Source: Cymodocea nodosa (lineage: Eukaryota > Streptophyta > Magnoliopsida > Alismatales > Cymodoceaceae). From it: a stretch of DNA of 64,000 nucleotides. The notes below the pieces were generated by a model, which saw only the letters and a program-made list of their open reading frames with translations, was not told the DNA's origin and searched no databases. Position 1 is the stretch's first letter, and each line of letters begins with the position of its first letter. A program made the translations under genes and the position numbers. Location of the stretch: the NCBI GenBank assembly GCA_036874045.1, contig CM072337.1, positions 4,216,001 to 4,280,000 of the forward strand, read 5' to 3'. This document shows positions 34,079-64,000 of this stretch, piece after piece.

Positions 34079-35662
34079 TGTTAGAACCTTTGTATTTTGA
34101 TAATGCAAAAATTTATGTAAAGAAATAAGTTGTATTTCACAGGTATCACAAGACAAATCAGTAAACTAAAGATCAAAAGGTAGATAAACAAATATAGGTA
34201 GTTCGAAAATTGCTACTATAAAAAAACAAAAACTTTAGATAGTTACAACACAAGTTAAAACTTAAGTATCTAAAAGAAGAAGAAAATCAGAAGATTACCA
34301 AGCTAACTATCCAAAAGTTAGCTTAAAGTAGTAAGGAAACATTTTTCGAAAAATTACATAACAAAGTATCTGATAGAAGAAGACTTTCAGAAGGTTAACA
34401 AGCTAAGAATCTGAAAGGAAATTTAAAGCAATAAGAATTTTTTCAGAGAGTTAGAAGGCTAACTATCTGAAATTAGAAGTCCTTTGAAAAATTAGTAGGA
34501 TAGCTAATTGAAAATCGAAAGGTTAAGAAGTTAACTATTTAGAAATTAGAAAGTTAGGAAGACAAACTATCTGAATAGTTAAATTATTTAAATACACGTG
34601 TAGAAATCTAATCGGAAGCTTAAAAAGACTTTTAGAGAGTTAGAAAGCTAACTATCCAAAAAATAGGAAGTTTTGGAAGGTTATAGATTTAACTATCCGA
34701 AACTTAAGTCATTCAATTATGCACGTGTAAAAATAAGAAAATAACAGTTAGAAGCTTAAAGGGAAATTCAAAAGGCTACCGTAACTATCTATCCAAAAGT
34801 TAAAACATTTCGAGAAGTTAATAGTTACAACTATCTAAAAGCTATGTTACTCATTTACTCACGTGTTGAATTTCAAGTCACATGCAAAACTTAAAGGTCA
34901 CATGAAAGATATAGCTCTTTAAGATTTTTTAAAGAGTTACAGATCAAGCATTTGGATTTTCGAAAGGTTACACCAGTTAACTATTGGAAAATCAAAGAGG
35001 ATCAGAAAGTTATCTTGAAACATCTCTCTAAATGATAACTTACTATTTTTAGGACTGACAATGTAATAAGTATAACAGGACAAATGTCGTTAGAAAAATA
35101 TGATCATTATACACCTTGGAATAAGTATGATCAAAACAAAAAGAAAAGATAACAATTATCAAATATTGAGAGCTACACAAAATTTTAGTAATACATACAG
35201 TTTGTAAATATAGAAGAGATCTATTCTCAAGCATACTGAAACACAAAAAGCTCCCTACACGTATACTCTAATTTAAAGCTCAAAAGTGTTGGTTTGTGGC
35301 TTCAACCTGAAAGCTATACTCAAGTTGTTGGTTTAAGTTTCAACCTGAAAACTTAAAAGGTTGGTTTGCTGAAGTTTTAACCTGAAAACTTCTAAGAAGT
35401 GGTTGATTCTTGCTTTAACTTGAAAGCAAGTATCTATAAGTGTTAATTTACTTAATGAAGCCTAAGTGAATCTTAGGGGTGGATTAGCCAAATTGGTGAA
35501 CCACCTAAAATCTCCTTGTGTTAATTTTTCTTTACTACTTTGCATGCATATTTAATACTTGAGCTCACTGATTAATCGAATCAACCAGTTAAGTTTAAAA
35601 AGAATTAAAATTACACATAGATCACCATTCACCCCCTTCTGGTAAGTCATACAATCCTAACA
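34079..35662 (+). repeat. 5' LTR of Copia A
   Basis: 1584 bp, TG...CA. CACGTG boxes at 34595, 34722 and 34860. TAACTATCC-type repeats near 34303, 34459, 34648 and 34690. The leader-like 3' third contains AACCTGAAAACTT- and GTTGGTTT-type repeats (35290-35400). Confidence 0.75.
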
Positions 35663-37687
35663 ATTGGTATTAGAGCTTGATTAATCCTCATAAAGATTTA
35701 ACCATCTAGATTACAATGGCATAATTTGCTAAGGGATAAAACATCCACAGACCTCCTCTATTCGATGATTCCAATTATAATTATTGGAAGAATAGAATGG
35801 AGTGTTTCCTCAAGAGTTTTGATATAAAACTCTAGAAGATTGTTGTTCTTAGAACTACACTTCCTACTAGTAATGTTATGGACTAGACTGAGGTAGATGA
35901 GAGAATCATCTAGTTAGATTCTTGAGAGCTGAATGCCATATACTATGCACTTACAACTGAACAATACAATAAGATATCTGTATGTAAATCAGCACATGAA
36001 GCTTGAAAAATCATTTAAGTCACACACGAAGGTACAAGCCAAGTAAAAGACACAAAAATCAGCATTTTGTTAAGAAAATTAGAACTATTTAAGATGAATG
36101 ATAATGAATGCATAACTGAAATGTTTTCTATATTTACTGAGATCATTAACAGCTTGAGAGGCTTAAGAAAGGAATTTTCTATGCGTAAACATGTACAAAA
36201 GATTTTGAGAAGTTTAACTATTGAGTGGAAACAAAAATCCACTTCCATTCGAGACTCCAAGGACCTCAACAACTATTCTGTAGAAGAATTGTTGGGCAAT
36301 CTACTAGCCCACGAGGTTTAGATGAAAGACCAGAAGGAACTGCTGAAAAGAAAGCTGAGAAGAAAAGGAAATTACATTTCCTTCAACTAAAGAAGCTCAG
36401 AGCTTAGATGATGATGAAATTATGCTACTAGCAAGGAATTTTAGAAAATTCATGAAGAAAAACAATAAAACCAGCTCCTCTAAAAGAATAATTTCTACAT
36501 GCTTTAAATGCAAAAGGCAAGGGTACATATATACTTTTTGTCCATTGCAGACAGAAGAAGATCAACCAAATAAGAGGAAAAGATGGAAGAACAAAAAGAA
36601 AATGGCTCTTAAAGCTACTTGGGATGATAGTAGCTCCTTAAGTAGCTCTTCAAATTCTAAAAATGAAGTTGTAGCCAACGTGTGCTTTATAGTACAAGAG
36701 ATATGCTCTACTTCTCCTTACTATTTAGAAAATGAAAATGATGATCTAGATGTAAATAATCTTCTCTATATAATAGATAGTTTATATGTTAAATGTAAAG
36801 AATATAAAAAACATATTAAAGGTTTAAATAATTGTTTAGAAGATTCTTTTGTTGTGCTAGAAAAAGCTCTTGTTGAAAATAGAAACTTAAAAACTAAAAT
36901 GAATAAATATAGTTGTGATAACTGTGAGTTAAGAGAATAAAATAAAAACTTATTAGCTGAAGTCTCTAATATGAAAAATATTGTATGCAAGTTTACATAG
37001 GGGCAAAAAGGATTAGATAAAATTATAGGATCTCAAAGACAAAATAACATTAAATATGGCCTTGGGTATGCTACACCACAAGAAGTATTTTATTATAGTA
37101 GCATGATCTGATCTTATAGAGATGTCACTACTGTCTTTGCTATCAAGAGAATATCTGATCATATGTGGCTGCTAAGAGGCAACAAATTAAATGTTTTAAG
37201 AACTAACTCTAGTGGACCCAAGAAGATTTAGGTACCAAAAACCTTAATCTCAATATGACATACAGGATGGCAAGGAGCTTCAAGCACAAACAACAAAATG
37301 GATCGTAGATAGTGGATGCTCAAAGCATATGATAGGTAAGAAAAGATTTGTTGATTTAGTTAAAAATTTAAATTTAGGATCTATTAAGTTTGCTGAAGTT
37401 TTAACCTAAAAACTTCTAAGAAGTGGTTGGTTCTTGCTTCAACCTAAAAGCAAGTGTTTATAAGTGTTAATTCACTTAGTGAAGCCCAAGTGAATCTTGG
37501 GGGTGAACTAGCCAAATTGGTGAACCACCTAAAATCTCCTTGTGTCAATTTTTCTTTACTACTTTGTATGCATATTTAATACTTAAGCTCACTGATTAAT
37601 TGAATCAACCAATTAAGTTTAAAAAGAATTAAAATTACACATAGATCACCATTCACCTCTCCTCTAGTGAGTCATACAATCCTAACA
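34079..37687 (+). mobile_element. broken Ty1/Copia element A
   Basis: The 5' LTR, 34079-35662 (TGTTAGAACC ... CCTAACA), is followed by a tRNA-Met primer site (TGGTATTAGAGC, 35665-35676). A gag region at about 35715-37080 carries a zinc knuckle (CFKCKRQGYIYTFCP near 36500-36545), then a short protease/pre-integrase piece (WIVDSGCSKHM near 37295). A 3' LTR fragment closes it at about 37392-37687. Most of pol and much of the 3' LTR are absent, and the gag carries several breaks. No target duplication is evident. The LTR carries the dyad/CACGTG cassette described in the findings. Confidence 0.8.
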
Positions 37688-38997: not shown

Positions 38998-40365
38998 TGA
39001 AATGACCTCTAGATTTTGATAATGCAAAAATCAATGTGAGGAATCAAATTGTATTTCTCAAATATAATAGTTCAGCAAAAGAGCAGAAGTCGATATAGAT
39101 AGTTCAGATTTTGCTACAAGTGATAAAAAGGAATTTGGAAGGTTACCTGGCTTAACTATCCAGAAGAGATAGAATTTCAATAAGTTACTAGACTTAAGTA
39201 TCTGAAGAGTCAGTTTAAAGTAGTAGAAACACTATCGGATAGTTAGAAGAATAACTATCCGAAATTACAAGGCATTCAGAGAGTTTTAAAGATAGTTGGC
39301 TGAATGATCGGAGAGTTAAGGTGCTAACTATCTGGAAGCTCAAAGAAAAGCGGAAAGTTAGGAAGGCTAACTAACTGAAACTTAAGTCATTGAATTTCCC
39401 ACGTGCAAAAATCCAGAATAGAAGCTTAAAAGATTTTTCAAAGAGTTAGAAAGCTAACTATCCGAAAAATAGGAAGTTTCGGAAGGTTGCAGACTTAACT
39501 ATCCGAAACTTAAGTCATCCTATTATGCACGTGTAGAAATAAGAAAGCAGTCAAAAAGCTTAGAAGAAGAAAATCAGAGAGTTACTGTAGCTAACTATCT
39601 GATAGTTAAGAACATTTCGGTGAGTTACAGTTACAAGTATCCAAACTTATGACACCCCATGTGTACGACTTAAAATCCCACATGGCAAAAGGACTTAAGT
39701 GGATTATTGGTGAGTTACGAGCATTCTTCGGAGTGTTACACAGCTAACCATCTAAAAGTCAAAGGAAATCAGAAGGTTATCTTGAAACACCTTCTTAAAC
39801 AGTAACTTACCATATTTGGTTCTACAATTTCAATAAGTACAGTAGAATACATTCGTTGGAAGTGAATATGATCATTATACATGACATTATATATACAAGC
39901 AACAGACAACAAAGTAAAATAGCTTTTTGCACATACAAATCTATACACCAAGCTTAACGCATACAGTAGAAAGTTTTCAAGATCAAATCTTCAGCAAATG
40001 CAAACTCAAGTTTAGAAGCTCTCCACTTATTAAACTCTGATTTCTTCAAGTAAGTGATTTACTAAAGTGCACCAACTAAAAACTTCAGTGATAGGTTGGT
40101 TGGAGCTACGACTAGAAAGCTTAGTCTGATTGGTTGGTTCTTACTTTGACCTTAAAGCAAGTGTTTGTAAATTTGTGAAAGCTTAGTGAAGCCCAAGTAT
40201 CCCTTGGGGGTGGTCTAGGTGTTAGTGGTGAACCACCTAAAATCCCTATGTGCATTATTTGTTATTGTGTGCTTGCTAATTTTCATTATCAATTAGTCAT
40301 TTACTTTATTAATAAACAAAATATTATTGTTCACCCCCCCTTTGGTAAACCATCAGGTCCTAACA
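38998..40365 (+). repeat. 5' LTR of Copia B
   Basis: 1368 bp, starts TGAAATGACC, ends CCTAACA. CACGTG at 39400 and 39528. Multiple CTAACTATCCGAAA-type repeats between 39160 and 39620. Confidence 0.85.
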
Positions 40366-40618: not shown

Positions 40619-41791
40619 ATGGATGCTCGTGAGCTTAATTTCATTTACTGTACACTAACTAGTGAACAGTATAATAAAATATGTACTTGTAAATCCTCTC
40701 ATGAAGCTTGGAAGACCCTTCAAATTACATATGAAGGAACCAGCCAAGTTAAAGATACTAAAATCAACATTTTGTTAAGAAAATATGAATTATTCAAAAT
40801 GCTTGAAAAAGAAAGTATTACTGAAATATTTTCTAGATTCACTGAAATTGTGAATGAACTAAGAGGCCTTGGAAGAGATTTTTCTAATTGTGAACAGGTA
40901 CAGAAGATTTTAAGAAGTTTGATAGTTGAATGGAAGCAGAAGTCTACTTCCATAAAAGATTCAAAGGATCTAAACAACTATTCAGTAGAAGATCTGTTGG
41001 GAAATCTTCTAGCTCATGAAGTTCAGATGAAGGAATGGAAAGAAGAAGATGGAGCCACTAAAAGAAAGGTTGAGAAAAAGAAAAAACTACCTTTTCCTTC
41101 AATAGAAGACCAACCAAGCTCGGATGAATATGAAGTTTTACTACTGGCTAGAAATTTCAAAACAATGATAAGACAAGGAGGTGAAGCTAGCTCCTCAAGA
41201 TCAAAAGTCCCTACATGCTACAAGTGCAAAAAATTGGGACACATTCAACTTTACCATCCTTTCCAGCAAGAGGAGGACAAACAAAAATGGAAGAAGAAGA
41301 ATAAGAAGAAAATGGCCTTGAAAGCCACATGGGATGACACCAGCTCATCCAACAGCTCATCAGACTTAGAGGAAGAGGCTTCTACAAACATGTGCTTTGC
41401 TGCACAAGAGGTATGTTCTACATCCTCTTATTGCTCAGAAAAAGAAAATGATGATTTAGATGTAGATAGTCTTCTCTATATAGTAGATAATCTATATGTA
41501 AAATATAAGAATTATAAGAAAGAATTAAAGAGCTTAAATTCCTATTTAGAAGATTTTTTTGCTGAATTAAAGAAAGCCCTAGTTGATAATAGGGAATTAA
41601 AAACTAAAATGGATAACTATAGTTGTAAAAATTTTGATTTGAAAGAAGAAAACAAAAATTTATTATCTGAAATTACTAATTTGAAAAACACAGTATGTAA
41701 ATTTACTAAAGGTGAAAACAACTTAAATAAAATCATAGGATCTCAAAGATCAGGAACAAGTAAATTTGGCCTAGGGTATGCTGTACCATAG
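40619..41791 (+). other. gag-like frame of Copia B
   Basis: The longest open frame in the window, 390 codons. The N-terminal half resembles the plant Copia UBN2/gag domain (YNKICTCKSSHEAWKTLQIT). A CCHC-type knuckle is near codon 200, followed by a Lys-rich stretch and a coiled-coil-like C-terminal part. Part of a broken retroelement; not a host gene. Confidence 0.75.
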
Positions 41792-42584
41792 AAAATTCCT
41801 TACTATGGTAGAAAAATTAGATCTTACAGAGATGACACAACTGTTTTTGTCATTAAAAGAAGATCTACTCATATATGGCTACCAAGAGGCAACATGTTTA
41901 ATATGCAAAGGACTAACATTGATGGACCTAAGAAAATATGGGTACCAAAAGTCTTAATTTCAACATGATTTGCAAGACTATAAGGACAAGGAAGCTCAAA
42001 CGTCAAAGTGGATTATTGATAGTGGATGCTCAAAGCATATGACAGGTAAGAAAAGATTTTTGAAATCTGTTAAGTCTATAAATTCAGGATCTGTTAAGTT
42101 TGGTAATAATGAAAAATGTAAAATTACTACTATAGGAAATGTTGCATCTAAAAATGGGAAAATAAAAAATGTTTTACATGTAAATGGTTTAAAACAAAAT
42201 CTGCTAAGCGTAGGTCAATTATGTGACAAAGGTTACAATCTACTTTTTACTACTGAGAACTGTTTTATATTACAACAAGATACACATGAAATTAAATTTA
42301 CTAGATATAGGGATAATTCAATTTATGCATTAGAATTTTCATTTGATAATATGTCTAGTTATGCATGTTTAGTTGCTTCTAATGAAGATGAATGGTCATA
42401 GCATAAGAGACTAAATCATGTGAATATGAGAATCTTAAGAAAGTTGACCAAACATGATTTTGTTAGAGGTGTGCCTAAACTCAAATTCAAAAGGGATAAA
42501 CTCTGTAGTGACTATACGATTGGAAAACAAAAGAAATCAGTACATAAGAGTATTGAAGACATTGCCACAAGAGTATTAAACATA

Positions 42585-43921
42585 GATAAGTTGTTGTTTT
42601 TGGTATTTTTGTTTTGATATGTTCATGAAAATGGGTGAAAGGTAAAACGTAAAAATCTCTATCAACAATAAAAACTTCCATCACTACATGCAACGTGATT
42701 ACACCATTGAAAACTTAATCACTTATAATCTTGCCTTCTCTCCTTATAGAATCGCGAGTCCAGAATTGCAAGATGATCTCCTCTTTAGCATACTGGTATC
42801 AACCTGAATCCAAGGCTAGAAGCTTTACGATCTCTTGTAATATGAGTCGGTGCTTGGTGAAAATGGCTTCCCTTCCCGCGACGTGATCATTCCTCATAGT
42901 GGTTGTCAAGCATTGTGTTTCACTCGGAATCGACTCGACATCAGGAAAGTATCTTCACAAACCTCCGATGGTAGGTGATTATGGTGATTTTTGGTGATGG
43001 TGTGGATGCTTTAGTGAACTTCTGATGTTGCGTATAGTTAGCGTGGTCCTCCACCTATGCACACACTGCCAACCACCCTTTCTTCGTTTTTCTCCTCTTC
43101 TTTTATATTTCTTCCGTAGTAACTACTTCTACTTAGATGATCGGTTGGATTTTCTTCATTTATATCAACGATGGTGATTTCTTCTTCCTTCCACAAGTGA
43201 ATTCCTGCGTGACACGTGCAATCGTGGTTTTCTTTCGAATGTCCTGTTTCTGTAACTACTATAGTGGCATATTAGAAAATAAATAGTCCATGGAGTTACA
43301 GATAACTCAACAGACTTACTTCGTTGATTTAACTATAAAACACGTGCAATAAAGAAATAAGCTACTAACATAACGCGTTACCTTAGTGTGTATTCATGTA
43401 ACTCAACGCGTATAGTTATGCTAACTTAACAAGTTAAACATGTGCATCTCACGTGATATACTAAAGCATTTAAATTCAACACATGCATAATTCTAACTTA
43501 ATGAGTTCAGATATTTCGGACACTTACAAACCTAACTATTCAATGCCCAAATGCATTTCAGATAGTTAACAGATAACTTACCGAAAATCCACTTAAGTCA
43601 TGCATTAAGGTTTCAACACGTGTACTCCAAGAAATAATAAAATATTCTTCTATCATTAAAAACATAATTGTCTGGTACGTGCAATATAACTCTCCGAAAT
43701 AACAGAAAATTCGGATACTTAAGAATTTCATAGCCTACAATTCCCTAACAGTTCAGAAATGTACTAAATCAACATTAATTCTCTGAAATTATGTAGATTC
43801 TTTCATTAAAGCATATAATAGTGAAAGTATAACATAATAGCTTAATTCTTATATGATAAGTTAAATATTATGCAATTAACCATCATTTAACCGTTAATAT
43901 TATGCACTTTTTCATTCTAAA
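42585..43921 (-). repeat. partial 3' LTR of Gypsy G
   Basis: Aligns along its length with 50866-52202 (for example TTGTTGTTTTTGGTATTTTT at both starts). It borders Copia B pre-integrase sequence on the left and the G polypurine run on the right. Confidence 0.8.
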
Positions 43922-46845
43922 GACTTCCCCCATACTTAAATTTTGCTAGTCCCTTAGCAAACTAAGATTTAACTAGTTGGTCTTTCTAAAGTACTAGAAT
44001 TAATTCTTCATTTTATTCTTCTTCAGAATACATAAATTTAGATTACTATAGAGATATTCTGTATTTTTCAGTAATCTATTTTAACATTGTTTTCTCCTCT
44101 TCAACCTGCAAATATATTTAAAACATATGTAAATTACATACAAAATACATTAGCATCACATAGGTGTTATTTATATTATCATTTTTTCTTCTTTTTAGCA
44201 TCTGTCATCCTGAATTTTCCATATGATTTCCAGAATAAATTTCAACTACATACGAATCAAAACACAATCCAATTCAATATGATTAAAACAAGTAGAATAA
44301 AGAATTGTATCTTAGATAAACAACTTCAAAAGTCTATTCTAGATTCATACTTCAATAATTTTAGATAATAGAAAATATACTCGATTTAAAAGATATCTGT
44401 ATTTTACAAAACACTTTTATCTTTTCAGAATAGTATATGCATATTTGGTCATGGCAGAAAGACAATATACTCTAATATTTAGTTTCTGGAATACACCTCC
44501 TTAAAACCAAATCAGGACATTTCTTAAATAAGTATAGGTCTTCCCAATAGTAATATTTTACTCTTGAAAAGAATAATTTCTTATCTTGTCTATTCCAATC
44601 CTTAGGTGTTAAACCAGTAACTAAGTAGTTAACTATGTCTGCATACTAAGGTATTGTGTTGATGGTCATTAATTGTTCATCAGGAAAATTATCCTTAATT
44701 TTAATATTTGACTTTTCTATTTGTAATCTTGATAAATGATCTGCTACTACATTGTCACAACCTTTTTTATCTTTAATTTCTAGATCAAATTCTTGTAATA
44801 ATAATATCTATCGGATCAATCTAGGTTTGATCTCTTTCTTTGCTATTAAGTGTTTTAAAGTTGAATGATCCGTGTATACTATTACTCTAGCTCCAATCAG
44901 ATATGATCTAAACTTTTCTAAGGCAAACACAATAGCTAACAGCTCTTTTTCAGTAGTTGTGTAATTAACTTGAGCATTATTTAAAGTTTTACTTGCATAA
45001 TGAATCACTCTAGAAGATTTTTCTATTTTCTGTCCCAACACTGCTCCTATAGCAAAATTAGATGCATCGCACATTAATTCAAATGGATGGCTCCAATCAG
45101 GTGCTTGCATTATAGGAGTTGAAATTAAGCTAGTTTTAAGCTTGAAAAATGCTTCTTTGCAATTTTTTATCAAAGTTGAATGAGAAATCTTTTAATAGAT
45201 TAGTTAAAGGTCTAACTATTTTGCTAAAATCTTTAATAAATCTTCTATAAAATCTAGCATGTCCTAGAAATGATCTAATATCTTTTACTAATTTAGGTTT
45301 TGGTAGATTAGAAATTACTTCTATTTTAGCTTTATCTACTTCCAACCATTTCTTTGAAACAACATGTCCCAAGACTATTCCTTGTTTAACCATGAAGTGA
45401 TATTTTTCCCAATTTAGAACTAGACTTTTTTCCAAACAACATTTTAATACTTGGTTTAAATTGTTTAAACACACTTCATATGAAATTCCATATATAGTAA
45501 AATCATCCATAAATATTTCTAAAAAATCTTTAGTCATTCTAGTCAATATGCCCTACATACACCTTTGAAAGGTGGCTGGTGCATTACATAATCCGAATGA
45601 CATTCTCTTAAAAGCATAAGTTCCATTACGACAGGTGAAAGTTGTTTTCTCTTGATCCTCTAATGCTACTAGGACTTGGTTATATCTTGAATACCCGTCT
45701 AGGAAACAAAAATATTCTTACCCTGCTAATTTTTCTAGCATTTGATCTATAAAAGGTAAGAGAAAATGATCTTTCCTAGTCACAACATTCAGCTTTCTAT
45801 AATCTATACACACTCTCCAACTTGATTGAATTCTAGTAGGTATCAAGTCTTGACTTTCATTCCTAATAACTGTTAATCCTGATTTATTGAGAACTACATG
45901 GATTGGACTAACCCATGGGCTATTAGAAATCGGATAAATTATGTCTTTATCTAAACATTTCACTATTTCCTTTTTGACTACTTCTTTAAGGTTTGGATTT
46001 AATCTCCTCTCAGGAATTCTAATAGGTTTAGCATTCTCTTCTAAGTATATGTGGTGACAGCATAAAGTTGCACTTAACCATTTTATATTAGTCATAGTCC
46101 ATCCTATTACTGTTTTATAAGTTTTTACTACATCTTTTAATTTAATAATTTAATCCTCTTTTAAATCTGAAGCAATAATGATTGGATATGTTCATTTTTC
46201 TTCTAGAAATATATAGGTTAATTCAGGAGGTAAATGTTTTAATTCTAAATGTTGCCCATCAGAAGTTAGAGCTCCTAATTGAACATCATCATTTTCTAAA
46301 TTAATTTCTTCCTAATCTCCTTCTATATTTATGCTTTCACTTTCTTTTAACGTTTCAGAATTTAGTTGCCTATTTAATTCTTCTTGAATCACATCATCTA
46401 GCATATCTCCTTCATCCTCTAAAAAGTCTATAGTATGTAAGGACATTTCTAACTCCTCAAACTTTTCTAGTTTGAAAATGTTTAATTGAGTATCCTCATT
46501 ACCATATGCTAACTTCATTACTCTAGTTTTATAATTGATAATAGCCCTTGATGTTTTCAAAAATGGTCTTCCCAAAATTAAAGATGTATCACTATTTTTA
46601 TGTTTAATTTGTTGGGAATCCAAAATTACAATATCAATAGGATATATGAAGTTTTTGATTTTAATTAAGACATCCTCTATTTTTCCTCTAGGGTATCTTA
46701 TACTTCTATCAGCTAATTGAATAACAGTCCTAGCAGGAATTAAGCCTTCTAATCCTAAGGATGCAACTATATCACTTGGCATAATATTTATACTTGCACC
46801 TAGGTCTATTAAGGTTCTTTCTAAAATGGTATCTCCTATGGTGCA

Positions 46846-48872
46846 TGTTTAGAATGAAAAAGTGCATATTATTAATGGTTAAATGATGATTAATTACATA
46901 ATATTTAGCTTATCATATAAGAATTAAGCCATTATGTTATAATTGTACTATTATATGCTTTAATTAGAATTACCGCTTAATTTTAGGGAATTAATGTTAA
47001 TTTAGTACATTTCTGAACTGTCGGTAAGTTGCAGGCTGTGAAATTCTTAAGTATCCGAATTTTCTGATATTTCGGACAGTTATGTTTAACAGACCGAACA
47101 TGTTAGATAGTTATGTTTAAATTGCCAAACAGTTATATTTTGAAAGAATATTTTATTATTTCCTAAAGTACACGTGTCAAAACCATAATGCATGACTTAA
47201 GTGAACTTTCAATGAGTTATCTCTAACTATCCGAAATTGCAACTGGGCATCGGATAGTTATATGTGTAACCCTCCGAAATCTCTTTTTATTTATAAAATA
47301 GCTGAGGACACGTGTCATGTTCTGGTAAAGTGACTTAAGTGGACTTTTAGTGAGTTAGCTATAACTATCCAAAATGCATTTGAGCATCGGATAGTTAAAT
47401 TTATGCACGTGTTTTATAGTTAAATCAACGAAGAAAGTTCATTGAGTTATCTGTAACTCCATGGACTATTTATTTTCTAATATGCCACTATAGTGGTTGT
47501 AGAAACAAGATAGTTGGAAGAAAAACCACGATTGCATGTATTACGTAGGGAGAAGAAATCATCGCCGTTGATATGAATGAAGGAAATCCAACCGACCATT
47601 CAAGCAGAAGCAGTTACTACTAAAGAAATATAAAAGAAAAGAAGAAAAAGAAGTAAAGGGTGCATGGTTGATTGATGGACGACTAGTGTGTACAAAGGAG
47701 GAACACCGAGCTTTCTACAGGCATATCGGCAATTCTCCAAAGTACCACACCAACCATCGTTACCACCACCATATCCACCTTAATTGCCAACCATCGGAGG
47801 TCTGTGAGAATACTTTCTTGATGTCGGGTCGATTCCGAGCAAAACACGGTGCTTGACAACCACTGTGAGGAATGATCACGTCGTAGGAAGGGAAGCCATT
47901 TTCACCAAGCGCCGACTCATATTTCAGGAGATCGTAAAACTTCTAGCCTTGACTTCGGGTTGATGCCTGTATGCTGAAGAGGAGATTATCTTACAATTTT
48001 GGACTCACAATTCTATAGGGAGAGGAGACAAGATTGTAAGTGGTTTAATTTTCAGTGGTATAATCACGTCGTATGTAGTGATAGAAGTATTTACTGTTGA
48101 TTGAGATTACTTTACATTTCACCTTTCACCCATTTCCATGTTCATATTAAACCAAAAACAACTTATCTGCTATTGTATGTTGTATTTAAGTGTTGTATTG
48201 TTTGTGTTGTATCGTGATTAATGTTATCTTTGTTAGTGTTGTGATTGTTTTATGTTTGTTTTAGTTTTACAGTTTACTGAAATTGGTTCATTCAAAAGAC
48301 TTAAAGATTTTAATGGTTACTGTTTGAATTATTTGAATGTTAATATTGCTTAATGATAAATCCAGTGTTTACTAACATTAAAGAGCTTAATTAATGTTAT
48401 TTACAATCTATGGAATCGCCCAATGGTTGGCCGAATTCCTCTGTAAATAGTAGTATTAAAAAGAAAAGACAAGCTCGTGGAATTAACTTAAATCCACGAG
48501 GTTAGTCCGTTGAGTTAGCTATAACTCAACGAACTTTATCCGTTGAGTTAATTGTAATTCAATGGGGAGCTTATTGAATATATAAATTTGATTGTTAACA
48601 AACGGACAGTTCTAAACTTTTAAGCAACTCTCTGTGGGATCGACCTATACTTGCACACTGATACAATAGACACTGTGCACTTACAGTTAAAGTACAAATT
48701 GGAATTAATATTTAAATTGTATTAAAGGTTGTTTGTTTACTTCTTAAAGAAAAAGAATAGGCATAAAGATAAATTAACTAAGTAAAAATAGAAGTAACAA
48801 ATCCAAGTTTTTCTGGTACATTATTGGAGATCTAATCAGATATTCTGGTGTCGTGCTGGGAAAAAGCAAATA
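46846..48872 (+). mobile_element. G-family LTR inserted in reverse inside Gypsy G
   Basis: Starts TGTTTAGAATGAAAAAGTGC and follows the G LTR in plus orientation to about 48805. It then runs on for some 65 bp with a primer-site-like CTGGTGTCGTGCTGGGAA. An exact 5-bp duplication, GTGCA, flanks it (46841-46845 and 48873-48877). Protease coding of G reads up to both junctions. It is therefore a later insertion by the same family: a solo LTR, or an LTR with a stub of leader. Confidence 0.75.
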
Positions 48873-50198
48873 GTGCATGATATAACAGGAATTCCATGAT
48901 CAGATAACTTTTTAGGAATTTGTGGCAGAAATAGGGAACTACTTTACTTAGTTAAAAAGAATTTCCTTAAAACTTTTTGCTCTCTTTTCTTAGTACACTA
49001 ATCCTTAAGATATTTAGCACAAGGTGGCATTTTTTGCAATAAGTCTAACAAAGGAATGTTAACTTGTACTTTTTCAAAAATTTCTCTTATTTTTTCTTAT
49101 TTTTTAGGAAATGTTTGTTGTAATCTTTTAGGATAGGGTGCTAATGATTGTGATTTAAAAGATTCTTTTTCTTTCATTTGATTTGTTTGATCATTTTTAG
49201 TCTCATTTTCAGATTCAGATTTTTCTTCATTGATTTCTATATTTTCAGATATTACATTTTCATTATCATTTTTGATTTTTGTTCTTATCCGCCTTCATAT
49301 TATTTTTGTTTTGAATTCTTGATGGTATATCAGTTCTAGGTCTTAATGTTATACATACATCTTCCAGATTTTCGTTACTTTCTTGATGTTCTTGTATATC
49401 ATTTTCGTGATTATGATCTTCAACTGTTTTTAGTTTTAAATTGCATTCTTTAAATTCTATTGCATTGGTATTTTCTTTTGTTTGTATGTCTTGCAAATTA
49501 TGCAAATTTGTAACATTAAAGTTTTCATTTGTGTTTTCCAGTTGCATAACTTGTAATTTCATTGTAAATTCATCCAATGTTTTTAGTTTTCTTTCTAAAT
49601 CATATAATCTCATTGCATTCAATTTTTGATCAATTTTCATTATGGTTTGTTCAGTTTCGTAAATGATATCAATTTTAGGTTATGAATATGCTTCCTTATA
49701 GTTTAATTGGTTGACTTCTTGTTGCTGACACATATATTGTTCTAGTTTGTCCATGTTTTGCTCTAAGCTATGCTTCAGTTTGTCATACCTATCCCAAACT
49801 TCATTGTCTCTCAACATATTACATATTCTAAGCTGACCATTAGTTGGGTAAGCCGTAAGATTCTCATACTTAGATCTATTATAGTGAAGATAATTCATTT
49901 GTTGTTCATGTGATCTAACCATCTGCAATCGTCTCAGTTTCAAACAATTAAAAATGTCGTGTCCTTCCAAATTGCAGAATTCACATATGCTAACTACAGG
50001 TTTCAGAAATCTTTGAGCATAAGCATATGCCATATTCTTAATTATAGAAGAAAACACACAACACTCCTCTTGCTATTAAAACAAAATAGCACTCACAGTT
50101 GCTTAGCTTCTCAATCCCTGACAACGACGCAAGAAAACTTGTTTTGATGTGAAAGGTTAGATCAGACAACTGGTCCCTAGCAGCGGCGCTAGAAAACT

Positions 50199-52207
50199 TG
50201 TCTATTGGGTTCGTTAACTTCTATTTTTACTTGTTTAATTTGTCTTTAGGCTTATATCAATAATTACTTTTAGAAGTAAACTAACAACCTTTCACACAAA
50301 TTAGATATTCATTCTAATTTGTATTTTAACTACAAGTGCACAACATATATCGTATTTGTGTACAAGTACAGGTCGATCCCAAAGAGATTGAGTAAGAATT
50401 GTGTATTGTTCTAGTTTTAATAATGGAATTTATGTGTTCAGTAAGCACTCCGTTGAGTTATAGTTAACACAACGGACCAAGTTTGTGGAGTTATGGCTAA
50501 CTCAATGGACTAACCTCGTGGACTTAAGTTAACTCCACGAGTCTATCTTTCCAGTTTAATACTTCTATTTACAAAGGAATTCGGCCAACTATTGGGCGGT
50601 TCCACAAATTGTAAATAACATCAATTAAGCTCTTTAATGTTAGTTAACATTAGATTTGTCATTAAGCAACACTAACATTCAGATATTTCAAATAGTAACT
50701 ATTAAAATCTTTAAGTATTTGGAACGAATCAACTTTAGTAAACTGTAAAACTATTTTCTATTTTCTGAATCAAACAAACATAAAACATTCACAATATTGA
50801 CAATGATAACATTACTCACGATACAAAACAAACAATACAACACTTAAATACTAAATATAAACACAAATAAGTTGTTGTTTTTGGTATTTTTGTTTTGATA
50901 TGTTCATGAAAATGGGCGAAAGGTGAAATGTAAAAATCTCTATCGACAGTAAAGACTTCTGTCACTACATGCGACGCGATTACACCACTAAAAACTTAAT
51001 CACTTACAATTTTGCCTCCTCTCCCTATAGAATCGTGAGTCTAGAATTGCAAGATGATCTCCTTTTCAGCATATTGGCATCAACCCAAAACCAAGGTTAG
51101 AAGCTTTACAATCTCTTGAAATATGAGTCGGTGCTTGGTGAAAATGGCTTCCCTTCCTATAACGTGATCACTTCTCATAGTGGTTGTTAGGCACCGTATT
51201 TGGCTCGGAATCGACCCGACATTAGGAAAGTATCCTCACAAACCTCTCATAGTGGTTGGTGATTATGGTGATTTTTGGTGATGGTGTGGATGCTTCAATG
51301 AATTTCTGATGTTGCCTACAGTTAGCGCGGTCCTCCACCTATGCACACACTACCAACCACCCTTTCTTCATTTTTCTCCTCTTCTTTTATATTTCTTCCA
51401 TAGTAACTACTTTTACTTAGATGATCGGTTGGATTTCCTTCATCTATATCAACGATGGTGATTTCTTCTTCCTTCCACGAGTGAATTACTACGTGATACG
51501 TGCAATCGTGGTTTTCCTTCAAATGTCCTGTTTCTGTAACTACTACAGTGGCATATTAGAAAATAAATGGTCCGTGGAGTTATAGATAACTCAACGGACT
51601 TACTTCGTTGATTTAACTATAAAACATGTGCAATAAAGAAATAAGCTGCTAACATAACACGTTACCTTAGTGTGTATTCATGTAACTCAATGCGTATAGT
51701 TATGCTAACTTAAAGAGTTAAATATGTGCATCTCATGTGATATACTAAAGCATTTAAATTCAACACGTGCATAATTCTAACTTAACGAGTTCAGATATTT
51801 CGGACACTTACAAACCTAACTATCTACTGCCTAGATGCATTTTGGATAGTTAACAGATAACTTACCGAAAATCCACTTAAGTCATGCATTAAGGTTTCAA
51901 CACGTGTACTCTAGGAAATAATAAAATATTCTTCTATCATTAAAAGCATAATTGTCTGGTACATGCAATATAACTCTCTAAAATAATAGAAAATTTGGAT
52001 ACTTAAGAATTTCACAACCTGCAATTCTCTAACAGTTCAGAAATGTACTAAATCAACATTAATTCCCTGAAATTACGTAGATTCCTTCATTAAAACATAT
52101 AATAGTGCAATTATAACATAATAGCTTAATTCTTATATGATAAGCTAAATATTATGCAATTAACCATCATTTAATCGTTAATATTATGCACTTTTTCATT
52201 CTAAACA
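50199..52207 (-). repeat. 5' LTR of Gypsy G
   Basis: 2009 bp. On the plus strand it reads TGTCTATTGG ... TTCTAAACA. Contains GGATAGTTAAC, ACTTAAGTCATGCATTAAGG and AACACGTGTACTC near 51840-51910, plus repeats of ACTCAACGGA-like phrases near 50450-50530 and 51580-51610. Confidence 0.8.
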
Positions 52208-54396
52208 ATACTACATGACTTTTCATGTCCAAGAACTCCTACACAGAATGGAGTTGTAGAAAGGAAAAATAGATCAGTATAAGAAATGGCAAGAACAATT
52301 CTTAATGCATCTGATCTACCAAAGTTTTTATGGGTTGAAGTTGTAAATACTGCATGTTATTCAATAAACAGAACTCATCTTAGACCTATCTTGCATAAGA
52401 CACCATTTGAATTATGGTATGGTAAAACACCAAATGTTGGATATTTTAAAGTTTTTGGATCAAGATGTTTTGTGCTTAATACAAGGGATCAAAAGGACAA
52501 ATTTGATGAAAAGTCTAATCCTACTCTACTTGTTGGATACTCTTTGAGAAGTAAGACTTATAGAGTCTATTTTGAATATGAAAGAAGAGTAGAAGAATCA
52601 ATAAATGTATCATTTGACGAAGACTTAGTAGGAAAATTAAAGCAACTAAAAATAGATAGTGAAAGTGAAAGTGAATCAGGAAATCAGAAAATTCTATAGA
52701 AAAAGGATAGTACAACATTGCCTGCATCTACTGTGATAGAAAAAGTATGGAAGATAAAGTTTGGACATCTCATTGCACAAATTATTGGGAATATAAATCA
52801 AGGTGTTCAAACAAGAAGCAAAATTCAGAATATTTGTAATTACTATGCATTTGTATCTGAACTTGAACCTACAATAGTTGAAAAAGCTTGCAATGATGAA
52901 TACTAGATTATGGCCATGCAAGAGGAACTGAATCAGTTCAAGAAAAATGAAGTCTAGGATTTAATTGAAAGGTTCATTGAAAAATTAATCATTAGAATTA
53001 GATGGGTGTTTAAGAATAAATTAGATAATAATGACAGTATTATCAGAAACAAAGCTAGACTTGTTGCTCAGGGATACAACTAGCAGGAATGAATCGATTA
53101 TGAAGAAACTTTTGCACCTATTGCAAGACTTGAAGCAATTAGAATGTTGCTTGCCTTTGCAAGTAGTATGAAAATAAAGTTTTATCAAATGGATGTTAAA
53201 AGTACTTTTCTTAATGGCATTTTGCAAGAGGAAGTATATGTAGAATAGCTACTAGGTTTTGAAGATGAAGAAAGACCAAACCATGTATACAAATTGAATA
53301 AAACTCTTTATGGTCTGAAACAAGCACCACGTGCTTGGTATGATAAACTGAAGGGTTTCCTTCTTGAAAATCAGTTTAACATAGGAATTGCAGATAACAC
53401 TCTTTTTATCAAGTCAGAAAATTCTCATATGTTGATCATTTAGATTTATGTTGATGATATTATTTTTGGTGCCACAAATGAGAAACTATGTCATGACTTT
53501 CAGATTTTAATGAAGAATGAATTTGAAATGAGTCTTATGGGAGAATTAAAATTCTTTCTAGGGTTACAAATTCATCAATTACAGCATGACATCTTTCTAA
53601 ATCAAGAAAAATTCTACAAAGAGATTCTTTTAAAGTTTGGTATGGAAAATCCAAAGAAGCAAATACACCTATGAACTCAACTGAAAAGCTTGATAAAGAT
53701 ATCTCTAGCACTTCTGTAGATCAAAAGAAATATAAAGACATGATTGGATCACTTCTGTATTTAACAGCTAGTAGACCAAACATAATGTTTAGTGTATGTG
53801 CTTGTGCAAGATATCAAGCTTCTTCGAAAGCATCACATTTAAAAGTAGTCAAACATATATTTAAATATTTATAGGGTACAAAAGACTTTAGCTTATTTTA
53901 TTCTTCATAGAATCTTCTAATATTAGTAGGTTATAGTGATACAGATTATGCAGGATGGAAATTAGACAGAAAAAACACCAATGGTACATGTCAACTACTT
54001 GGTCACTCTCTTGTTTCATAGTTCAGTAGAAAACAAAATTCTATAGCACTCTCTACAACTAAAGCTGAATACATGACAGTAAGTTTATGTTGTGCATAGA
54101 TTCTATGGATGCAACAAACATTGGTCGATTATAAACTTAAATTTCAGAATACAATCATTTACTATGACAATAGCAGTGCCATAAATCTCTCCAAGAATAT
54201 AGTCCTACACTCTAGAGCAAAACATATCGAGATTAAGCACCACTTTCTAAGAGACCATGTTGAAAAAGGTCATATTTCTTTAGAATATGTCTCTATTAAA
54301 GAACAATTAGCAGATATTTTCACTAAACCATTGTCTGAATCTGCATTTAATCATATTAGACAAAATTTAGGAATTTGTTCTTTATATGATTTATAA
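52204..54396 (+). other. Copia B integrase end, reverse transcriptase and RNase H remains
   Basis: Readable in several pieces: the integrase C-terminal part (52286-52699), reverse transcriptase (about 52900-53640; RWVFKNKL-, KQAPRAWYDKL- and YVDDI-type motifs), and RNase H (53930-54396) with SAINLSKNIVLHSRAKHIEI and an ADIFTKPL ending. Broken in a number of places. Typical Copia order IN-RT-RH. Confidence 0.8.
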
Positions 54397-54751: not shown

Positions 54752-57344
54752 TGAAAGGACCTCTAGATTTTGATAATGCAAAAATCAATGTGAGGAATCA
54801 AATTGTATTTCTCAGATATAATAGTTCAGCAAAAGAGTAGAAGTCAATACAGATAGTTTAGATTTTGTTGCAAGTGATAAAAAGGAATTCGGAAGGTTAC
54901 CAAGCTTAACTATCCGGAAGAGACAGAATTTCGGTAAGTTACCAGACTTAAGTATCCAAAAAGTCAGTTTAAAGTAGTAGAAACACTATTGGACAATTAG
55001 AAGAATAACTATCCAAAATTACAAGGCCTTCAGAGAGTTTTAAAGATAGTTGGCTGAATGATCGGAGAGTTAAGACACTAACTATCTGGAAGCTCAAAGA
55101 AAATCAGAAAGTTAGGAAGGCTAACTATCCGAAACTTAAGTCATTGAATTTCCCACGTGCAGAAATCCAGAACAAAAGCTTAAAAGATTATTCGGAGAGT
55201 TAGAAAGTTAACTATCCGAAAAATAGGAAGTTTTGAAAGGTTGTAGACTTAATTATCTGAAACTTAAGTCATCCTATTATGCACGTGTAGAAATTAGAAA
55301 GCAGTCAAAAAGCTTAGAAGAAGAAAATTGGAGAGTTACTGTAGCTAACTATCCGATAGTCAAGAACATTTCGATGAGTTATAGTTACAAGTATCCGACT
55401 TATGACACCCCACGTGTACGACTTAAAATCCCACGTGGCAAAAGGACTTAAGTGGATTATCGGTGAGTTACGAGCATTCTTGAGAGTGTTACATAGCTAA
55501 CCATCTGAAAGTCAAAGGAAATCGGAAGGTTATCTTAAAACACATTCCTAAACGGTAACTTACCATATTTGGTTCTGCAATTTTAGTAAGTACAGCAAAA
55601 TACATTCGTTGGAAGTGAATATGATCGTTATACATGACATTATATACACAAGCAGCAGACAACAGAGTAAAATAGCTTTTTGCACATACAAATCTATACA
55701 CCAAGCTCAACACATACAATAGAAAGTTTTCAAGATCAAATCTTCAGCAAATGCAAACTCAAGTTTAGAAGCTCTCCACATATTAAACTCTGATTTCTTC
55801 AAGCAAGTGGTTTACTGAAGTGCACCAACTAAAAACTTCAGTGATAGGTTGGTTGGAGTTACGACCAGAAAGCTCAATCTGATTGGTTGGTTCTTACTTT
55901 GACCTTAAAGCAAGTGTTTGTAAGTTTGTGAAAGCTTAGTGAAGCCCAAATATCCCTTGGGGGTGGACTAGCCATTAGTGGTGAATCACCTAAAATCCCT
56001 ATGTGTATTATTTGTGTTAGAAATTTAATTTTGATGATATATGCTTTATTAACATTTTTAAATAAGTCTACATAATATTCTCTAAGTATATTTCTCTAAG
56101 TATAATAGTTAACAGATTATCGGAAAGTTTCATTTTTATGTCGGATAAATTAAAGATTTCCAAAGAATTAGATTTGCAATAGTTAAACTTTTGGATAGTT
56201 AACGTTTCATTTTTGTCAAATACTTTATGTTAAAAACTTATATAGTTAAGTTATCTACACATGTGTTTTTAATGTTTTAAGTTGTCACGTGTTTTCCATG
56301 TGCGTTCGGTAATGAAAAATCGAATAGTTAGATAACTGTTCAAGTTTTTATACGCATGGATAGATAACTGTTCGAGTTTTATAAAAGGACTAACGAATAG
56401 ATAACTTTCCTTGTTTAGTCACGTGTTTTGCAGGTGTAAAAACTCGAAGAGTTACAGATAAATGTTCGAGTTTTTATAGGACTTAAATGATAAGTGTTCA
56501 ACTAAATCGAAGACTTAGAAGATATTCTACAAGACTCTAGGAAGATAAAAGTCTCAATATATCTACGAGTGGAGATTGTGGAAATTCAAAATGATTGTGG
56601 AGAAAGTGGAAACTCAAAAAGATAGTAATTTGGATTAAAGAAAAAAATTAGTACGTGGATTATGGATTATGGATTGTGGATTAAGTGGATGAACTTGTTG
56701 AACGTGAAAGACAACAGAGTTCGACTATAAATAAAGAGTACGAGCTACATTACAACAAATGATCCTAATCTCAAAAACCAAGTCTGAATATTCAATCTGG
56801 ATCCCTAACTGAGAAGTTAAGTTTGAATATTCATATTCTGAAAAATTCTCCAACATTAGAAGAAGTTCGAAATTCTAAACAATTTTAGAAAAGGAGCTGC
56901 AAACGCAAGAAGTCTGGAAATTCGACAACTAGAGAAGAAGAGATATAGAAGTTGAGCAAAAAGAAAGAAAGAAGTTGTGTGCATAAAGATCAGGTTTTAT
57001 ACAATTTAAAATTAGTTTTGAATAAGAACTTTGTTTTTCTATTTGAATTATATATCAAACATTACTGTATCAAAACCTTCAAGAAGGGAATTGAGCTTAA
57101 AAGATATTGTAAATTCTATTTTTAAATAAAGAATAGAATCTCATTTACAAGTGTTTTGTGCTCTTGTTTTATCCGCTAGTATTTAATTACTAAATACACA
57201 ATTCACCTCCCTCTTGTGATATAGACGATCCTATAATTTATTATTGTATGCTTGCTAATTTTCATTATCAATTAGTCATTTACTTTATTAAGAAACAAAA
57301 TATTACCATTCACCCCCCCTCTAGTAATCCATCAGGTCCTAACA
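54752..57344 (+). repeat. 3' LTR of Copia B (interrupted)
   Basis: Starts TGAAAGGACC, ends CCTAACA. Without the 1221-bp solo LTR and its 5-bp duplication it is 1367 bp, against 1368 in the 5' LTR. CACGTG boxes at 55154, 55282, 55411 and 55432; a 30-bp dyad at 55191-55220. Confidence 0.85.
56015..57235 (+). mobile_element. solo LTR of family Z inside the Copia B 3' LTR
   Basis: TGTTAGAAATTTAATTTTG at the left; the right end is GATCCTATA. It is flanked by ATTTG (56010-56014) and ATTTA (57236-57240), an imperfect 5-bp duplication. The surrounding LTR sequence resumes exactly where the 5' LTR of B predicts. It matches the older Z copy at 38305-38997 and 57350-57778. Confidence 0.7.
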
Positions 57345-60000: not shown

Positions 60001-60485
60001 AACATTGTGATAGGAAAGAGACTGTAATGACTTTTGCTCTCTCTCCTCTACGCAACCTTCTCCTTTATTCTTTAATGTCTTAAATTGGAACCTATCGATA
60101 AAGGGACTACGTCTGTTTGTACGCAAAGAAACTCACCCTCTTGACTCATGATGGTTGGAAGATGAAGAAAAATAGAATGTAGAAGATGAACACGCAAGAT
60201 TTAATGTGGTTTGACAACTACCAACATCCATGGGTGCCCTTAGCTCTTGAGATGTTGATAATGGTGCACATCAACTTATGCAGGTACATCTCTATTTATA
60301 GGGAAAGGTGTAAACCCTAAATACAACAATTACAAATTCTACCCTAGTCTTCCATTGCATAGTCATTGGCTTTCGACAGGTTCTTCTGGAAGCTCCCATG
60401 ACTACACTTGCTAGATAGCTAAGTTGACCTCTATTTGGTTGTGAAAACTTAAATCAGAAAACTTGTGGCAACGATGCTAGAAAAC
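60001..60485. other. unassigned, LTR-like sequence
   Basis: Includes CTATTTATAGGGAAAGGTG and ATTTAATGTGGTTTGACAAC phrases of the sort found in plant LTR leaders, and near its right end a G-family primer-site-like stretch (TGGCAACGATGCTAGAAAA, about 60466-60484). No boundaries established. Confidence 0.3.
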
Positions 60486-60751
60486 TTGATTGATTTGTTT
60501 TTATGCTTATGTTAATAAATTCTTGTAGAAGTAAATAAACAACTTTTCACACAAATTAGCTATTAAGTTTAATTTGTATTTTAACAGCAAGTGCATAGTA
60601 TCTATTCTATTTGTGTGCAAGTATAGGTTGATCCTACATAGATTGAGTAAGAATTATGTACTATTTTATTTTTGTAACTAGAGTTTTATGTGTTCAATTA
60701 AGCTCTCTATTGATTTACAGTTAACTCAATGGACTTAGTTTGTGGAGTTAT
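60486..60751 (-). repeat. Gypsy G-family LTR fragment
   Basis: Matches the primer-site-proximal end of the G LTR at about 50199-50500: TAGAAGTAAA, CTTTTCACACAAATTAG, AATTTGTATTTTAAC, GATTGAGTAAGAATT in the same order. It is cut on the right by the LTR of Copia D. Confidence 0.7.
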
Positions 60752-62043
60752 TGTTAGGATCGATAGGCTCACTAGAGGGGGGGTGAATGGTGAAGGTGTG
60801 AAAATTTTACTTCTTTTTAATTAAGAATCAACTAATTCTATTAAACGGTGAGTTGAACTAAAGTAAATAGATGCACAACAGTAAGAAGAAAATAACACAG
60901 TAATTTTTAGGTGGTTCACCAACTTGGCTAGTCCACCCCCAAGATACACTTGAGCTTCACTAAGTAGACAAGTACTTACACACTTGCTTTTAGGTTGAAG
61001 CAAGAACCAACACTTAGAGCTTTTAGGTATAAGCTCAATAACCAACCTTTCTTCGAACTTTCAGGTTGAAGCTCTCAACCAATAATGAGTTTTCAGGTTG
61101 AAACTTACGAATCAATAGCATTAAACTTTACTATCAGAGTTTTGGCATAGGGATCATATTTTTCTTCCAACGGAAGTATTCTACTGTACTTGCTAAGAAA
61201 TCAGACCTAAATATGGTAAGTTACCGTTTAGGGAGGTATTTCAAGATACCCTTCCGATTTTCTCAAACTTTTGGATAGTTAGCTGTGTAACTCTCCGAAG
61301 GATGTTTGTAACTCACCAAAAAATTACTTAAGTCTTTCTGCCACGTAGGATTTCAGATCGTACAATTAGATGTTACTCGATCAAATACTTGTAACTGTAA
61401 CTTACCGAACTATCCTTTGACTATCGGATAGTTAGCTTTAGTAACCCTCCGAAATCCTTCTCTTTAAGTTTCCAACTGCTTTCTTATTTTAGCACGTGCA
61501 TAAAAGAATAACTTAAGTTTTTCGGATAAATAAGTCTGTAACCTTTCGAAAATTCCTATTTTTCAGATAGTTAGCTTTCTAACTCATCAAAAAATCACTT
61601 AAAGCTTCTGTTCTGGATTTCTACACGTGGGTAATTGAATGACCAAAGTTTTAGATAGTTAACTTTTCTAACTCACTAAAAACTCCTTTAGCTTCCAGAT
61701 AGTTAACTCCTTAACTCTGATCATTCAAACTTTCTTAACTGTCTAATCTTTTAACTCTCTGAAGGCTTTGAAAATTTGGATAGTTATTCTTCTAACTGTC
61801 CGACGATATTTCTACTGCTTTACTTTTCGGATACTTAAGCTTGGAACTCACTGGAAATTAACTTTCTTCTAGATACTTAGCTTGGTAACTATCTGATTTT
61901 CTTGTAGCTTTATAGTAGTAATTTCTGAACTACCTGTATTTGTTTATCTGCCTTCCGATCTTTTGCTGCACTGTCTTCATTGTGAAATACAATATGTTTC
62001 CTCACACAGGTTTTTGCATTATCAAAATACTAGGATCCTAACA
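60752..62043 (-). repeat. 3' LTR of Copia D
   Basis: 1292 bp, TGTTAGGATC ... GATCCTAACA on the plus strand. CACGTG at 61493 and 61624; dyad CGGATAGTTA-n7-TAACCCTCCG at 61425-61451; many further GGATAGTTA and TAACTC motifs between 61250 and 61900. Confidence 0.8.
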
Positions 62044-62979
62044 ATCTCCCCCTTTTTGATAATGACAAAATCCTTTACATTTATTTACATGTATTTCACT
62101 CCCTAGATTGTTTCTATACATTCAGTCACACAGAAACTAAGTAAAGCAAATATTTACAATGAATATAATAAAGAGAAGTTAATTCCTCCCCTTGATAGTG
62201 TGCTGTCTTCTCCCCCTATCTATGTGTTGGGATACTCTTCCCTGTTTTAATACTTCTCCTTTTGTTTGTGCTGAAAATATTGTAAGTTTCCATATTCTTC
62301 TCCAATTTTCATATTCTTCTCCCCCTTTTTGTCATTATATAAAAAGGTTATTGATATCTGTAAAATTGATATCTAATATGTCCTACACGAGTACATGTTA
62401 GTAGAAAGCAAGCTCCCATAAGGTGAGCTTGAGGAATAATAAAAGCATTTAAAGATCATGTAATGAACATATGCCTAGATTTCTTCTAATATGATTAAAA
62501 GTTGATTCATTTAAAGGTTTGGTGAAAATATCTGCAAGTTGATTTTCTGTTGGAACAAACTTAAGTGAGATGTTCTATTTTTCCACATGATCTCTCAAGA
62601 AATGATGTCTGATTTCGATGTGCTTGGCTTTGGAATGAAGTACTGTATTCTTAGATAAGCTTATTGCACTGTTGTTATCACAAAATATAACTGTATTCTG
62701 AATTTTTAGTCTGTAGTCTGCTAAAGTTTGTTGCATCCAAAGAATTTGAGTACAACACAAACCTGCTGTAATATATTCGGTTTCAGTAGTAGATAATGCA
62801 ATACAGTTTTGTTTCCTACTGAACCATGAGATTAATGAATTTCCAAGTAGTTGGCATGCGCCACTAGTACTTTTTCTATCAGATCTGTTGTCTGCATAAT
62901 TTGCATCACTATAACCTGTTAACAATAGATTACTGTCAACTGAGTAGAATAATCTGAAATCTTTGGTGCCTTGTAAATA
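60752..62979 (-). mobile_element. broken Ty1/Copia element D, 3' part
   Basis: The minus-strand order is RNase H (62925-62575, with GYSDANYADNRSDRKSTSGA, ALSTTETEY and HIEIRHHFLRDHVEK), an untranslated region with G-runs, the polypurine tract AAAAAGGGGGAGAT (about 62057-62044) and a 3' LTR (62043-60752). Upstream parts are missing because another LTR begins at 62980. It inserted into a G-family LTR. It is related to Copia B by its RNase H and LTR motifs but is a distinct family. Broken fossil. Confidence 0.8.
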
Positions 62980-64000
62980 TGTAGGATCGTATGGCTACAC
63001 AAGAGGGGGGTGAATTGTGTATTTTTAATATTTTCTGAAATATAATTGAAACTTTAAAACTCAAAAACAAGTCGAGACAGTGTTTTCATAAAATCATTTT
63101 TATTCAAGGTTTCAATTACAATATATAATTCAATTCTCCTTAGAAATTGTAGATGCAATTATATTTCGATACCATGTTTCATCTATACAATTTCATAACT
63201 ACAAACAAAGAAAACTAATTTACGAAATTTAAAACATTTCTCTCTGTTTGAGATCTTTCTTCTTCCTTCTTCAGCGATTCTTCAATGACGAATATCTTGT
63301 CTTTTTACGCTTCACCGAATTTGCTTTCTTTTGATACTTCAAATCTTCAGTGACGAAAATCTTACATTTTTATGCTTCACTGAATTTTCTTTCACTTGAG
63401 AGATTTTTCCTGAAGAGGTGTTTTTGATCCCCGAAAAAGATTTTTCTTTTAGTGTGCAGGGATAGTTTGATACTTGAAAAGATTTTTCTTTTTAGTGTGC
63501 AAGGATGGCTTGATCAACGAGAATTCTATGCCTTTTATACTATATCTTCATTTCATGCATATCCTTCACATTTAACCACTACTAGTTTTCCACTTCTCCA
63601 TGTCTTTTCTTTTTCCTTTATCGAAACACACACGTTCCAACCCACGTTTATATTTTGAATTTTCTTTAATCATTAGTCCTGGATCTCTGAAAAATTTCCT
63701 ACAAAATAAACTTTCTCGTCCAAAATTTTTTCATCAATGTACAAGAAGTCATTACTTTAATGTTAACTAAATGAGTAACACAAGTATATATATATAACTT
63801 AACGTTTCTAACTTAATGAGTTCACCATGTGCCATTTCATGTGACAAGAACTGTAGCTAACTCAACGAACTAAGTCTGCGGTGTTATGCTAACTCAACGA
63901 ACTAGCTTAACCTTTCTTTTGGAAGGTTAAACGATAACTCATCGAAAACAGTTTAAGTTTCGGATAGTTATAGATGTAAGTCACTGAAAAACTCTTTATA
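62980..64000 (-). mobile_element. LTR E, running off the window edge
   Basis: TGTAGGATCG at 62980 begins an LTR-type sequence in minus orientation (the AAGAGGGGGGTGAATTGTG phrase is typical of the LTR end of these Copia families). It continues past 64000 and interrupts the RNase H of element D. Near 63940-63980 it carries TTTCGGATAGTTATAGATG, the same motif as the other LTRs. No internal region is visible; family uncertain, Copia likely. Confidence 0.55.

Follow-up and report, generated by a model that had tools for sequence, protein, structure and literature searches.

A dyad and G-box array in the LTRs of Copia and Gypsy retrotransposons of Cymodocea nodosa, and a Gypsy U3 block within a Copia element

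Can retrotransposons of unrelated superfamilies hold control sequences in common? Copia and Gypsy elements are generally held to have long terminal repeats (LTRs) that evolve separately, and the question is raised by 64,000 nucleotides of the Cymodocea nodosa genome (GCA_036874045.1, contig CM072337.1, forward-strand positions 4,216,001 to 4,280,000; hereafter the window), which a nest of LTR retrotransposons fills from about 34 kb onward. A reading of the window made from the sequence alone (the sequence-only reading) had described short dyads with CACGTG boxes in LTRs of both superfamilies, and had suggested either modular exchange between families or convergence on one host factor. We found that this array is genuine and far from random, and that part of it is common to the superfamilies by descent: a block of the unique 3' region (U3) of Gypsy LTRs has a homologue in the 3' internal region of a Copia type, here called E-type.

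The dyad consists of TCGGnnAGTTA facing TAACTnnCCGA, and its half-site is better given as TAACTnnCCGA than in the form first proposed. In a relaxed version (4-7 bp between the arms, 26-29 bp in all, 16 or more of the 18 fixed bases present; gaps of 0-14 were tested) it occurs 23 times in the window, between 34443 and 63987, every time in an LTR and with a gap of 4-7 bp, and is absent from positions 1-34000 and from the reversed window. Positions 34000-64000 hold 41 GTTA-n4..7-TAAC cores, where 100 dinucleotide shuffles give a mean of 3.97 and a maximum of 11; in 1-33999 there are six (shuffle mean 2.59, maximum 7). The earlier claim that the dyads recur in the LTRs of Copia A, B and D and of Gypsy G is borne out, and the three cases singled out as clear lie exactly where they had been placed:

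47251 to 47276, plus strand: dyad in Gypsy G, gap 6
61425 to 61451, minus strand: dyad in Copia D, gap 7
55191 to 55220, plus strand: dyad in the Copia B 3' LTR, gap 6

Exact patterns were also counted in the 374.6-Mb genome (28 contigs), with the same pattern read backwards as control. TCGGNNAGTTAN4-8TAACTNNCCGA matches 11,786 sites, and its control none. The palindrome ACTTAAGT followed by the G-box (ACTTAAGTN10-22CACGTG) is found 24,923 times (12,434 + 12,489) against 28, GGATAGTTAN6TAAC 18,518 times against 21, and GGATAGTTAN4-8TAACTATCC 1,785 times against 0. A second dyad type, CGTTGAGTTA-n-TAACTCAACG (CGTTGAGTTAN4-8TAACTCAACG), has 8,364 sites against 0, with a 4-bp gap in nearly all places among the matches listed; near-perfect variants occur in the Gypsy LTRs of the window (cores 48514-48525, 50457-50468 and 51579-51590). 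The mixed-arm form has just 30 sites (control, 0). On contig C1, the first full dyad among the matches listed stands at 2.29 Mb, a length over which the genome mean predicts about 70 sites, and the dyad is therefore probably not a common host promoter element.

The elements that carry the array in the window, and their neighbours in the nest, are as follows:

34079 to 35664, plus strand: Copia A LTR, with relaxed dyads at 34443 and 34673, ACTTAAGT at 34702, and CACGTG at 34595, 34722 and 34860
39003 to 40365, plus strand: Copia B 5' LTR, followed by the primer site ATTGGTATCAGAG
42577 to 43923, minus strand: LTR of the pair enclosing the Gypsy Z coding region (window self-comparison, dyad scan)
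44811 to 46848, minus strand: Gypsy Z coding pieces, namely RNase H (44811-45191), RVT_1 slightly below cut-off (45139-45552) and aspartic protease (46315-46848)
46846 to 48806, plus strand: Gypsy G LTR, inside Z, with relaxed dyads at 47072, 47209 and 47250 and a TATA-like word at 47629
50190 to 52207, minus strand: LTR of the pair enclosing the Gypsy Z coding region (window self-comparison, dyad scan)
54758 to 57340, plus strand: Copia B 3' LTR, interrupted by the E LTR, with six relaxed dyads at 54889-55356 and a TATA-like word at 55641
56017 to 57240, plus strand: E LTR, solo here, without internal region or primer site
60750 to 62046, minus strand: Copia D LTR, kin of A and B by LTR similarity, with relaxed dyads at 61271, 61424 and 61776
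62981 to 64000, minus strand: F LTR fragment, its end similar to that of E, with a relaxed dyad at 63960

Protein domains give Copia B and Gypsy Z a secure assignment. In the self-comparison of the window, the LTR pair 38998-40262/54752-56015 (92.7% identity) encloses Copia coding sequence, with a PF14223 gag at 40619-41788 behind the 5' LTR and RVT_2 at 53444-53671 upstream of the 3' LTR; B thus has the gag and reverse transcriptase between LTRs that mark Ty1/copia. Its 5' LTR holds six relaxed dyads (39235-39602), ACTTAAGT at 39380 and 39508, CACGTG at 39400 and 39528, and a TATA-like word at 39888. Copia A and D follow through their LTR similarity to B; a Copia gag-like open reading frame (ORF) stands downstream of the A LTR in the same orientation (read by eye, without a profile scan), and the ORF beside D (62578-62994) matched no Pfam family above cut-off. 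A piece of Gypsy LTR at 60484-60750 (80.7% to 50229-50494) ends where the D LTR starts, at a GGAGTTA half-site, as though Copia D had landed within or next to a dyad. The F fragment had been absent from the list of dyad carriers in the sequence-only reading.

The pair 42577-43921/50858-52205 (91.8%) encloses Gypsy coding sequence on the minus strand, and has an inverted relative at 46846-48806, the G LTR. The Z/G family shows marks of Ty3/gypsy, namely Gypsy-type RNase H and protease, the RVT_1 match below cut-off, and a primer site of a type other than tRNA-Met; this primer-site type and the long LTRs would make Athila/Tat a candidate lineage. Elsewhere in the genome, locus L034 carries the cassette in its own 5' LTR (2706 onward), then a GGCGCC-type primer site, and an RNase H match about 3 kb downstream of the LTR; it also has a separate Copia B-like LTR bearing dyads. 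G is a Gypsy LTR because of its similarity to the Z-family LTRs, the domains of the Z interior, and this third copy, and the option that it is a misassigned Copia LTR is rejected. At 46841-48880, G lies within the Z protease ORF with GTGCA on both sides, as seen by eye, which may be its target duplication and would then set the LTR end near 48873.

Evidence for common descent comes from 20 Copia loci drawn at random (seeded) from 135 RVT_2 matches; 150 matches had been listed, those scored among 15,128 candidates, and 15 were removed by hand, mostly as near-copies. None of the 12 with short LTR pairs (about 180-370 bp) has a relaxed dyad, and in three of them a single loose GTTA-TAAC core lies outside the LTR pair. 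The remaining eight stretches hold relaxed dyads; one (L017) has Gypsy LTR sequence, and seven, all with E-type LTR sequence, contain a block of up to about 440 bp that is homologous to Gypsy U3. The block is about 74-81% identical to the Gypsy LTR, by copy and piece, and lies in the same sense. Such a stretch, alignable between a Copia interior and a Gypsy LTR, is what recombination between elements is recognized by. In a tree of the blocks the Gypsy and Copia groups are split once (support 70/99, 73% of 200 bootstrap trees; unrooted). The E LTR, solo in the window, is elsewhere the 5' LTR of these Copia elements: a tRNA-Met-type primer site stands directly behind it in six of six loci read (TGGTATCAGAGC in three, a one-base variant in three), with RVT_2, by which the loci were picked, downstream. 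Four Gypsy loci were taken out of 20 drawn from 146 of the 150 RNase H matches listed. Of these four, L034 carries the array and L033 one relaxed dyad; L035 and L036 have none in the stretches taken, which need not include the LTR.

Could the Gypsy-like pieces in Copia loci be chance Gypsy solo LTRs? The region is heavily nested, the Gypsy LTR sequence of L017 looks nested too, and no 3' LTR of the E-type elements was seen. Against this, in five of the seven loci the block begins at a distance of 1831-1855 bp behind RVT_2, its surroundings are about 86-95% alike between copies, and it corresponds to Gypsy LTR positions 98 to about 559 alone; Gypsy and Copia are moreover set apart by domains and primer sites. 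We regard chance nesting, like misassignment, as highly improbable. A preference of nested insertions for palindromes, slight in the excerpt of the report that describes it (PMC6911290), does not explain the arrays.

The related pieces that the sequence-only reading had seen in Z and E fared differently: Z shares the array with G, whereas the E LTR is unsupported as a carrier and has at most a weak relationship, 33 and 96 of 200 shuffles matching its best alignments with the two Gypsy LTRs. Behind pol, E-type elements have an extra ORF on the same strand, open in four of six stretches, with the common stretch RMTKVQKRELEL and no Pfam family above cut-off:

L026, 9452 to 9841: extra ORF of an E-type Copia
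L023, 8193 to 9002: extra ORF of an E-type Copia
L025: extra ORF of an E-type Copia

According to the excerpt cited, 74% of SIRE elements have an extra ORF (PMC6317226). The E-type elements are at most candidate members of this lineage.

Between the LTRs of Copia A, B and D and those of Gypsy, box types and order agree beyond chance; among the non-LTR controls for these comparisons, one pair (segment 10001-11800 against Copia D) came close, with 4 of 200 shuffles reaching its score. Convergence, in which the U3 arrays of the two superfamilies arose separately under selection for the same host-factor sites and share only box types and order, is a reading that we hold to be possible, at odds clearly below even. 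In its favour, ACTTAAGT stands 10-22 bp from CACGTG at ten places in the window, at a distance of 12 bp in six of six Copia places and 18 bp in four of four Gypsy places, and Copia dyads mostly have a gap of 6 or 7 (43 of 47 sites), whereas 4 is the commonest in Gypsy (21/46). On the other hand, the long dyad, ACTTAAGTCA and CACGTG follow in the same order over 222 columns of the Copia B/Gypsy G alignment, the alignment of Copia B with the E block extends to letters past CACGTG, and the E block is plain homology. Pairwise tests that shuffled the spacers alone (30 non-independent pairs, the E block being among the five Gypsy-type rows) left 15 of 30 significant under a loose mask and seven of 30 under a strict one. 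The stricter result makes common descent of the A/B/D and Gypsy U3 regions less well supported, and speaks for convergence. Exchange between the superfamilies is shown for the E-type block, a place that the sequence-only reading had not named; the A, B, D and G dyads may or may not have been exchanged as a module.

What might the array do? We think it probable, with moderate confidence, that it is an enhancer present in both superfamilies, with one block common by descent, the Gypsy U3 block inside E-type Copia. The cassette would be an upstream control array in the U3, built of long dyads, with half-sites TAACTnnCCGA facing across 4-7 bp, and of the palindromes ACTTAAGT and CACGTG. The dyad, as double-stranded DNA, may be the binding site of a host transcription factor that acts as a dimer. 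The G-box CACGTG is bound by bZIP or bHLH factors, and a G-box factor would be the candidate here. One array would serve Gypsy (Z/G) and Copia (A/B/D) LTRs alike, and at least one array block is common by descent; in E-type Copia it lies upstream of the extra ORF and could work there as an internal promoter. Its transfer may have run by template switching, or by nested insertion followed by amplification; mechanism and direction alike are putative. Several points weigh against this picture: we know of no named plant element that the dyad matches, the genome counts reflect amplified families rather than independent events, the strict spacer test supports few pairs, and the dyad arms covary modestly in the Copia set (the observed value is reached in 21 of 1000 permutations) and without significance in the E blocks (67 of 1000).

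The stem-loop shape, short loops and covarying arms would also suit hairpins in retrotransposon RNA, in place of DNA sites. Arm mismatches on the sense strand, however, are about equally G/T and A/C (80 versus 84; Copia 35/35, Gypsy 30/29, E blocks 15/20), where RNA pairing would favour G/T; because of this lack of wobble bias the hairpin was rejected as the main explanation, and it is very unlikely. The best Copia B-Gypsy G alignment is moreover inverted relative to the LTR, and the dyads accompany the palindromes CACGTG and ACTTAAGT. The array recurs across several LTR families and orientations, as it would if a mobile sequence of a third kind (a satellite or a short non-autonomous element) had brought it into both superfamilies. 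No free copy was seen among eight dyad-pattern loci, all matching window LTR families, a negative that is weak because the loci overlap, representing about five separate places in one part of one contig; we give such a source little credence.

LTR swapping between retrotransposon partners of one genome has reportedly been seen in soybean (Du and colleagues, Plant Cell, 2010, by title); the partners there were reportedly autonomous and non-autonomous elements of one superfamily, whereas the block here is in both superfamilies and in a Copia internal region. Endogenous pararetroviruses offer a likeness: in the part of the study cited, region-specific recombination exchanges noncoding regulatory sequences, not coding DNA, in concert among different retro-elements within a single host (Chen et al. 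2017, PMC5491270). The intergenic regions of those partner viruses are highly similar, whereas the Ty1/copia-Ty3/gypsy blocks are older and more diverged. The tomato Rider and tobacco Tto1 elements have U3 motifs including MYB and ABRE-like sites (PMC6762207, in excerpt), a clustering of host-factor sites in an LTR promoter that the array, with its putative sites, resembles; those are short known motifs of one Copia family, and here a 26-29-bp dyad that is not known to have a name spans two superfamilies. Short inverted ends, a TATA box and U3 tandem repeats are known LTR features, but a U3 array common to superfamilies is not expected from general LTR models, in which, as excerpted, U3 is much less conserved and has few recognisable motifs bar the TATA box (Benachenhou et al. 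2013, PMC3601003). A literature text search for GGATAGTTA and TAACTATCCG gave none on plant retrotransposon promoters among the matches listed. In separate searches for earlier reports of palindromic or common Copia/Gypsy LTR modules, no title or abstract start among the matches listed described one, which is no proof of absence.

Outside the nest, the window has a lone palindrome, CATAGAGTTA-ACTA-TAACTCTATG (21535-21566), with CACGTG close by at 21499, and an approximately 170-bp unit in two adjoining copies, 93% alike (19974-20316). A near-invariant 25-mer with an 11-bp spacer, ACTTAAGTTGTTATTTTTGCACGTG, occurs many times on contig C1 among the matches listed (e.g., 20723-20747 and 3867688-3867712), also near the contig end.

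A bolder version, which we put forward tentatively and think rather doubtful, is that a portable enhancer crossed the Copia/Gypsy divide of one plant lineage, that one dimeric host factor activates both superfamilies, and that the Gypsy U3 block, upstream of the extra 3' ORF of E-type Copia by about 390-460 bp from the start codon, serves as its internal promoter. A common U3 grammar together with a homologous block across superfamilies would mean that the retrotransposons of one genome pool control sequences, which suggests that genome parasites can have regulatory parts in common even when unrelated. If so, one host factor could activate several families together, and Copia and Gypsy LTRs would not be independent in evolutionary studies; the 11,786 exact dyads make the putative binding protein easy to look for.

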